Of a DNA stretch of 46,508 nt, positions 45,650 through 46,508 are shown one piece after another (positions within the stretch are counted from its first letter, which is position 1; the number at the start of each line of letters is the position of its first letter). The notes below the pieces were generated by a model, which saw only the letters and a program-made list of their open reading frames with translations, ran no database searches and was not told the origin of the DNA. This DNA comes from a virus, in IMG/VR virus record IMGVR_UViG_3300025133_000197, positions 1-46,508 of that record; one strand, 5' to 3'. A program made the position numbers and the translations under genes.

Positions 45650-45730
45650 TCACAAATCACCTCTTTTCTCTTGAATTGTCAGGTATATTGCTACAATAGC
45701 CATGACTATTAATATTGTTTTTGCTACCAT
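45650..45730 (-). CDS. Tiny membrane peptide, 26 aa
   Basis: The product MVAKTILIVMAIVAIYLTIQ-EKRGDL is one hydrophobic helix with a short charged tail. Its ATG follows the stop of the next upstream gene after a single G, within the repeated junction element described separately. That shared start context makes translation likely despite the small size. A role in membranes (holin-like, inhibitor, anchor) cannot be assigned. Confidence 0.5.
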   Translation of the reverse strand: MVAKTILIVMAIVAIYLTIQEKRGDL

Positions 45731-45897: not shown

Positions 45898-46077
45898 TTA
45901 GTCTTGTTTTAGTTCTTGACTTATTTTTGCTATAGTTTTTTCACCATCTAAATACTGCTCGAATAAATTCAATGCGTATTGTTTAACATTATGTAAAGAA
46001 GAATTCTTACGTTCTAAGTAATTAATATACTCCTGTATGTGGTACGGTTGTGATAAAATGTCTTTTGGTCTTTGCAT
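45898..46077 (-). CDS. Small helical protein ending LKQD, 59 aa
   Basis: The product is MQRPKDILSQPYHIQEYINY, then LERKNSSLHNVKQYALNLFE and QYLDGEKTIAKISQELKQD. It appears helical and soluble. Both its start and its end lie in copies of the junction element, with one G between the neighbour's stop and its own ATG. Function unknown. Confidence 0.55.
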   Translation of the reverse strand: MQRPKDILSQPYHIQEYINYLERKNSSLHNVKQYALNLFEQYLDGEKTIAKISQELKQD

Positions 46078-46078
46078 C

Positions 46079-46210
46079 TTACTCTTGTTTTAGTTGTTTA
46101 GCTTTTAGTTTAGCTAACTTAGAGTAATAATTAAACTTCTTACTATCTCGGTTTCTGTAGAATTTCTTCTTACCTATAAGCTCTTTAATGTCTTTATCTA
46201 AGTCTTTCAT
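46079..46210 (-). CDS. Small basic protein ending LKQE, first gene of the leftward unit, 43 aa
   Basis: The product is MKDLDKDIKELIGKKKFYRN, then RDSKKFNYYSKLAKLKAKQL and KQE. It is very basic and helical. No gene is found between it and the right end of the window, so it is the first gene of the leftward transcript seen here. Its leader carries the junction-element sequence without any ORF ending in it. Function unknown; early phage genes of this size often target host proteins. Confidence 0.52.
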   Translation of the reverse strand: MKDLDKDIKELIGKKKFYRNRDSKKFNYYSKLAKLKAKQLKQE

Positions 46211-46239
46211 ATCTTAGTCTTGTTTTAATGTAACTTTTG

Positions 46240-46268
46240 TAAACGTATTTGTTTACTTTTTGAGCCAA
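46240..46268 (-). promoter_or_regulatory. Candidate leftward promoter next to the first small gene
   Basis: On the minus strand TTGG (46268-46265), a 17-nt spacer and TACGTTTA (46247-46240) resemble the Bacteroidota -33 TTTG / -7 TAnnTTTG pair, though with a short spacer and an imperfect -33 box. Transcription would begin near 46233, giving a leader of about 23 nt before the ATG at 46210. Weak by itself. Confidence 0.3.
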
Positions 46269-46350
46269 TTAGTCTTTCTATTCGGCTCAATTTACCTTCG
46301 TTAATAATACGAGGGTAGATAAAGCTTATATTTACCTTCGTTGTGGCTCA
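46260..46350. repeat. TTGAGCC inverted/direct repeats with tttaccttcgtt direct repeats
   Basis: ttgagcc (46260-46266) and ggctcaa (46284-46290) form a perfect 7-bp inverted repeat with a 17-nt loop. A third ggctcaa lies at 46345-46351. The 12-mer tttaccttcgtt occurs at 46291-46302 and 46331-46342, 40 bp apart. The dyad suits binding of a dimeric regulator; the arrangement around the candidate promoters suggests operators. Confidence 0.75.
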
Positions 46351-46352
46351 AA
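46320..46352 (-). promoter_or_regulatory. Second candidate leftward promoter
   Basis: On the minus strand TTTG (46352-46349), a 20-nt spacer and TAAGCTTTA (46328-46320) fit the Bacteroidota spacing; the -7 box has one extra base compared with TAnnTTTG. The -33 box is inside a TTTGAGCC element that also recurs at 46260-46290. Start would be near 46313, with a leader of about 100 nt. Confidence 0.35.
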
Positions 46353-46381
46353 TTGTCTTGATTATGAGCTACATTCCACAT

Positions 46382-46414
46382 TTGCGCCTATATTTTTCTA
46401 CTTGCGCCTATATT
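46382..46414. repeat. Direct repeat ttgcgcctatatt, two copies 20 bp apart
   Basis: The exact 13-mers are at 46382-46394 and 46402-46414. Twenty base pairs is about two helical turns, so both copies face the same side of the helix. This suits an iteron or an operator pair. Confidence 0.75.
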
Positions 46415-46427
46415 CCGATATGCGATA

Positions 46428-46488
46428 TTATACCCATTCGGGTACATATACCCTTGATGTGTACTATTTTATACCCATTCGGGTACAT
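46428..46488. repeat. Direct repeat ttatacccattcgggtacat, two exact copies 41 bp apart
   Basis: The copies are 46428-46447 and 46469-46488. Each contains an inner dyad taccc-attc-gggta, a 5-bp stem with a 4-nt loop. A third tataccc lies between them (46446-46452). With the neighbouring repeats they make a control region that continues to the window end; 46229-46508 has no gene that I can support. Confidence 0.8.
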
Positions 46489-46508
46489 TTTATACTACTT
46501 ATCTGGTT

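Follow-up and report, generated by a model that had tools for sequence, protein, structure and literature searches.

Host repressor sites, such as LexA boxes, occur in phage control regions. The array of repeats described here would likewise place sites of host repressors in the control region of a phage, although it would unite those of several toxin-antitoxin (TA) repressors and shows no recognisable host promoter. In Legionella, HipB of the HipBST system binds a series of operators at even spacing, and both HipT-HipB and HipS-HipT-HipB complexes form on operator DNA (PMC10653801). CccR, a Fic protein with a DUF4172 domain, binds palindromes at its own promoter and represses it, and CbFic2 is stimulated by DNA binding (PMC10628234). 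On the phage side, RNA and protein mimics of antitoxins have been described (PMC3475682, PMC11481870), and we found no precedent for DNA operator decoys of TA systems in the open-licence literature.

The stretch analysed here (the window) is one entire IMG/VR record, 46,508 bases long and listed as linear; this contig terminates within the array, which is cut off at the window end. The window encodes a muzzle protein (Pfam crAss_MUZ, E 3e-155) together with RIIA/RIIB, a primase, a DnaB-like helicase and Sak4, and was therefore assigned to a crAss-like phage. Since neither near nor distant blastn against a phage database gave a meaningful match, relatives were drawn from IMG/VR. The longest contigs of close relatives reach 90-96 kb, and the window amounts to about half of one marine crAss-like phage. 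Structural genes occupy the plus strand up to 33.6 kb and replication genes the minus strand between 46.2 and 33.7 kb; the GC-skew of the window shifts only at 33-34 kb, coinciding with this switch of coding strand.

The original prediction had read the end of the window as a dense control region with four repeat families, possibly a replication origin or a polymerase promoter array, and all four families are present where it had placed them (Table 1). The TTGAGCC/GGCTCAA dyad (46260-46290) has 13-nt arms that are 85% complementary, the copies of TTTACCTTCGTT lie 40 bp apart with the inverted half ACGAGGGTA between them, those of TTGCGCCTATATT 20 bp apart, and those of the 20-mer TTATACCCATTCGGGTACAT 41 bp apart. 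The palindrome GTAAACGTATTTGTTTAC is additional to these families. Read along the minus strand, towards the small genes, the elements in the window are ATGTACCCGAATGGGTATAA, which recurs after 41 bp, followed by TATCGCATATCGGAATAT and two copies of ATATAGGCGCAA at 20 bp; the TAGCTCA...TTGAGCC half-site pair and the succession AACGAAGGTA, inverted copy, AACGAAGGTA come next; and the 29-bp palindrome TGAGCC-N17-GGCTCA and the palindrome GTAAACAAATACGTTTAC follow ahead of the ATG of a 43-aa gene. The half-site pair (GGCTCA-N14-TGAGC) is joined to the FIC site in L015, a close relative, and may represent the inter-operator half-sites of a FIC tandem. Rfam searches of the window and ten other array-bearing contigs (carriers) placed no RNA family within the array.

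Table 1. Elements of the array and neighbouring features; positions refer to the window unless a contig is named.
Feature	Position	Strand	Description
HIP site 1	46469..46488	-	putative hipB-type operator; core TACCCGAATGGGTATAA, 46469-46485
HIP site 2	46428..46447	-	core 46428-46444; at host hip operator pitch from site 1
ABI site TATCGCATATCGGAATAT	46410..46427	-	putative operator, HTH (MRPQDIV...)/AbiEii type
Module B	46382..46414		TTGCGCCTATATT at 46382 and 46402
GGCTCA-N14-TGAGC pair	46345..46372		half-site pair
Module A	46291..46342		TTTACCTTCGTT 46291-46302, inverted ACGAGGGTA 46309-46317, TTTACCTTCGTT 46331-46342
FIC site TGAGCC-N17-GGCTCA	46261..46289		putative operator, type of Fic-DUF4172 genes
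HIG site GTAAACGTATTTGTTTAC	46239..46256		putative promoter palindrome, type of HTH_3-DUF6922/AbiEii loci
First small gene past array	46079..46210	-	43 aa, starts MKDLDKDIKELIGKKKF, ATG at 46210; no family
RNA-like modules	L010:6320-6760, L045:6380-6690, L018, L024, L029, L035, L049, L032:1204-1335		

The leader AACTAAAACAAGAGTAAG is common to the starts of small minus-strand genes in the window (45902-46227, repeat families D3 and D4) and also precedes the first genes in the carriers L083, L088 and L096; it is probably a translation-initiation leader. A 26-aa probable membrane peptide encoded on the minus strand at 45650-45730, MVAKTILIVMAIVAIYLTIQEKRGDL, resembles MAAKIVLAFMVVVGIYLTIKENNRDL of L083, a phage otherwise unrelated to the window, where the latter peptide is encoded immediately past the array; arrays are repeatedly followed by small hydrophobic peptides.

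The two HIP sites (TACCC-N4-GGGTATAA, repeated at 41 bp) match the hipBST operator pair of Bacteroidota. A pattern search with the GTACCC-N4-GGGTATAA pair returned five stretches in 84,980 bacterial and archaeal genomes, all of them in Bacteroidota and each upstream of a HipB-like gene with HipN and HipA_C behind it; the operons tested behind the host pair carried HTH_3, Couple_hipA and HipA_C, that is, the hipBST layout. In the gene-first direction, HipB of these loci was found in 48 of 198 Bacteroidia genomes, and the palindrome stood upstream in 21 of the 30 hipB loci read. Host hip operators are spaced by 40-41 bp in 30 of 32 instances and the phage HIP pitch is 41 in 11 of 12, which gives the 41-bp spacing the operator meaning that had been proposed for it. 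The window pair thus presents the tandem TACCC-N4-GGGTA at the 40-41 bp pitch that characterises hipBST operators, and no hip genes were found beside it or in the array-bearing loci of the other carriers; as judged from its sequence, it would work like a hipBST operator, yet it belongs to no hip locus. With the Legionella system it shares evenly spaced inverted repeats, which HipB binds there (PMC10653801), but its sequence and 40-41 bp pitch are those of Bacteroidota hip loci, the Legionella operators differing in both sequence and spacing, and the phage loci have neither a hip gene nor an abutting -7 box. A second HIP pattern search, covering 295 genomes, gave three positives, in one of which (G048) the pair adjoins an AbiEii-type locus, not hip, a point against the reading proposed here. 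There (L122, contig 103 of G048), the two sites are 41 bp apart, with a recombinase-like gene on one side and the AbiEii-type locus on the other, and they may belong to a mobile element that bears the same site type.

The FIC pattern, TGAGCC-RAWTA-N7-TAWTY-GGCTCA, yielded five sites in 247 genomes, and its reversal none. At four of the six host loci with such a site, two retrieved by blast included, the site directly precedes a gene for a Fic protein whose N-terminus is a DUF4172 domain. Retrieval by family gave 29 DUF4172-Fic loci, 25 of which have 6-17-6 palindromes; the arms are TGCGG in 24 of these and TGAGCC in one. The window site is likewise a 29-bp 6-17-6 palindrome with TGAGCC arms, with no Fic-DUF4172 gene directly downstream. 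CccR-type auto-operators (PMC10628234) are comparable as palindromes at a Fic promoter, the phage site having the 6-17-6 form of Bacteroidota Fic loci, but the phage loci contain no Fic gene and combine one full site with half-sites. Single FIC sites of the TGCGG type, present in 80 viral contigs of which 77 have no Fic gene in the vicinity, were left out of the support because lone palindromes can be terminators.

For the ABI site, the host counterpart is TATCGCATATCG, the sequence of the operator sites upstream of the HTH gene of HTH/AbiEii loci; the window departs from this pattern by one mismatch and L015 matches it exactly. TATCGCATATCGNNATAT is present in 5 of 169 genomes, at four of the five loci upstream of an MRPQDIV-type HTH gene (that of L186, on the reverse strand, was identified by eye), with an AbiEii nucleotidyltransferase-like gene next to it wherever the reading reaches that far. 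The strict HIG pattern had no match in 178 genomes, and HTH_3-DUF6922 loci were therefore read gene-first: a palindrome of the GTAAAC-N6-GTTTAC type, imperfect in some cases, lies at the promoter of all eight HTH_3-DUF6922 genes whose start could be placed. The window site fits this form, from which host sites vary. This reading and one blast hit (L158, the locus that revealed the site type and in which AbiEii follows) form the basis of the HIG assignment, which, given the failure of the strict pattern, is the weakest of the four.

Across the 46.5 kb of the window, the host-defined patterns (ABI with one mismatch allowed) match only in the array, with all types within 250 bp, and when the window was shuffled 60 times by dinucleotides, two types never came together within 300 bp. 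When the array was compared by blastn with 395 Bacteroidia genomes, blind to any gene, three of the five best host matches were hip promoters; the host matches L165, L167, L170, L172 and L173 lay within genes or lacked context and were taken as chance. These comparisons argue strongly that the array sites are, in identity, operators of Bacteroidota toxin-type loci, and the array is very probably a composite of host TA operators, either copied from them or converged on them. No hip, Fic or Abi gene was found in the array-bearing loci, which are partial genomes, and the same search recovered hip genes from all 30 bacterial controls. In host genomes, the site nearest the gene usually abuts the Bacteroidota -7 box TAnnTTTG (14 of 20 hip loci when boxes with a final A are included, and examples among Fic loci). 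This box abuts none of 18 HIP and none of 15 FIC sites in phages, and neither strand of the array contains TAnnTTTG. Palindromes and pitch are retained in the phage array and a recognisable host promoter is not.

For modules A and B (tttaccttcgtt and ttgcgcctatatt), the sampled genomes gave no host counterpart, the module B pair being absent from all 217 searched. A single host match to module A proved to be a terminator-like hairpin and was rejected, and a B-like string in L032 belongs to a different conserved element, of which it forms the end.

Scanning IMG/VR for the central palindrome returned 17 contigs, and the GCGCC pair was found in two more. Besides the window, 16 contigs (one under two locus ids) had at least two site types within 300 bp; a match in L084 fell within coding sequence and was dismissed. 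Most carriers were fetched through the FIC pattern, which biases co-occurrence, so that the informative parts are the second site types and L015, a close relative obtained solely through its Sak4 protein, whose array is an independent variant. Grouped by the genes they contain, the carriers fall into a crAss-like group, the group of L083, L086, L096 and L109 (with terminase, portal and methyltransferase genes), a looser set of L087-L089 and L093-L095, and singletons; they span at least three gene-content groups. Array stretches are 79-99% identical between the window and L083, L086, L088, L089, L095, L096, L109 and L110, none of which groups with the window by genes. Comparison of carrier flanks revealed that array elements are interchangeable blocks. 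Between L083 and L096, which have genes in common, the TACCC pair is cleanly swapped for three AGAAGGKATAA-type repeats at the identical junction TATAATATCGC; such repeats, whose 11-bp pitch is one helical turn, replace the HIP pair in L086, L089, L094, L096, L109 and L110. In the L095:2774 region, an extra palindrome, ATCACATTATAATGTGAT, is inserted beside the GCGCC pair and is possibly another operator module. Tandem TACCC-N4-GGGTA at host pitch occurs in 62 viral contigs, as against 4 for scrambled halves, and no hip gene lies within 2.5 kb of these sites among the contigs examined. The sites stand between genes in 37 of the 62, which form 25 groups by shared proteins; the other 25 contigs have them in long open frames, several of which are coding repeats, and were excluded from support.

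From the literature on HipBST and on CccR and CbFic2, the putative ligand of each phage site would be a toxin or a toxin partner. A titration decoy is the likeliest reading of the array, and we give it even chances. It would then carry operators of hipBST (a kinase toxin), of Fic-DUF4172 (an AMPylase with its own DNA-binding domain) and of two HTH/AbiEii nucleotidyltransferase systems. Replication of phage DNA would produce many copies of the array, and these would titrate HipB with HipS/HipT, Fic itself and the HTH proteins off their promoters, or else toxin complexes would be held on phage DNA. TA expression may shift in favour of the phage, or the toxin complexes may stay parked on the DNA, and the host systems would fail as abortive-infection defences. 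With one or two sites per genome, titration requires a high phage copy number. Pseudo-ToxI of phage PhiTE (PMC3475682) is likewise built of repeats and imitates one component of a TA system of the host, but it is an experimentally shown RNA mimic of one antitoxin, whereas the array would consist of DNA operators of several systems. We hold more tentatively, at somewhat short of even chances, that Bacteroidota phages of several lineages use exchangeable DNA operator decoys against multiple TA and Fic regulators as a gene-free counter-defence; equally tentative is the part of this proposal by which the module content of an array would record the toxin systems met by the phage.

The chief rival to a decoy is a phage promoter gated by host repressors, in which the downstream gene would be on only when antitoxins or Fic leave, the array thereby sensing the TA status of the host. 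In many carriers, a start codon follows the FIC site at 18-26 nt, as in host Fic loci, an arrangement that also suits gene regulation, and small membrane-protein-like genes recur downstream. However, the downstream genes differ among carriers, no TAnnTTTG box exists in the array or abutting its sites, and several repressors would have to depart together, all of which makes such a promoter unlikely. It is more improbable still that the sites serve HipB-, Fic- or HTH-like regulators encoded elsewhere in the phages: although the carriers are fragments and half of the genome of the window phage is missing, no such gene was found in the array-bearing loci examined, and several per phage would be required across unrelated lineages. 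Relics of promoters from TA modules formerly borne by phages, without present function, would account for the block-wise mosaic structure and the missing promoter boxes, but they are a very unlikely explanation of palindromic cores and a 41-bp pitch kept while the -7 boxes were lost, of four TA types assembled together and common to several lineages, and of HIP pairs in 25 groups. The dense DNA control region and the operator spacing of the original prediction stand, but its iteron replication origin or polymerase promoter array, which near-helical repeat spacing and adjoining replication genes had favoured, is the least probable reading of all: most relatives covering the position lack the sites, no adjacent initiator was seen, the elements are swapped block by block, match host TA operators and recur in phages of other gene content, the window contains no further copy of the 20-mer when up to 3 mismatches are allowed (0.02 expected by chance), TAnnTTTG is missing, and in L032 and L083 the array lies between same-orientation genes and heads no transcript.

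If the decoy proposal is true, operator arrays would be the DNA counterpart of antitoxin mimics, gene-free and directed at several systems in 270 bp. Their modules, readable from sequence, would predict the TA systems that act against a phage, crAss-like phages included, and it could be tested directly whether hip, Fic and AbiEii loci of Bacteroidota counter phages, which is disputed. Even as gated promoters, arrays through which a phage senses several TA regulators would, to our knowledge, be new.

Relatives without operators have conserved, apparently structured RNA-like modules at the array position, which gave no Rfam match at the gathering threshold where tested and are a possible new RNA family; a further such module, in L032, lies upstream of the L032 array. 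One of them, R1, occurs in 29 contigs and has a closing stem, UUAGGC/GCCUA, with changes on both sides at three pairs.
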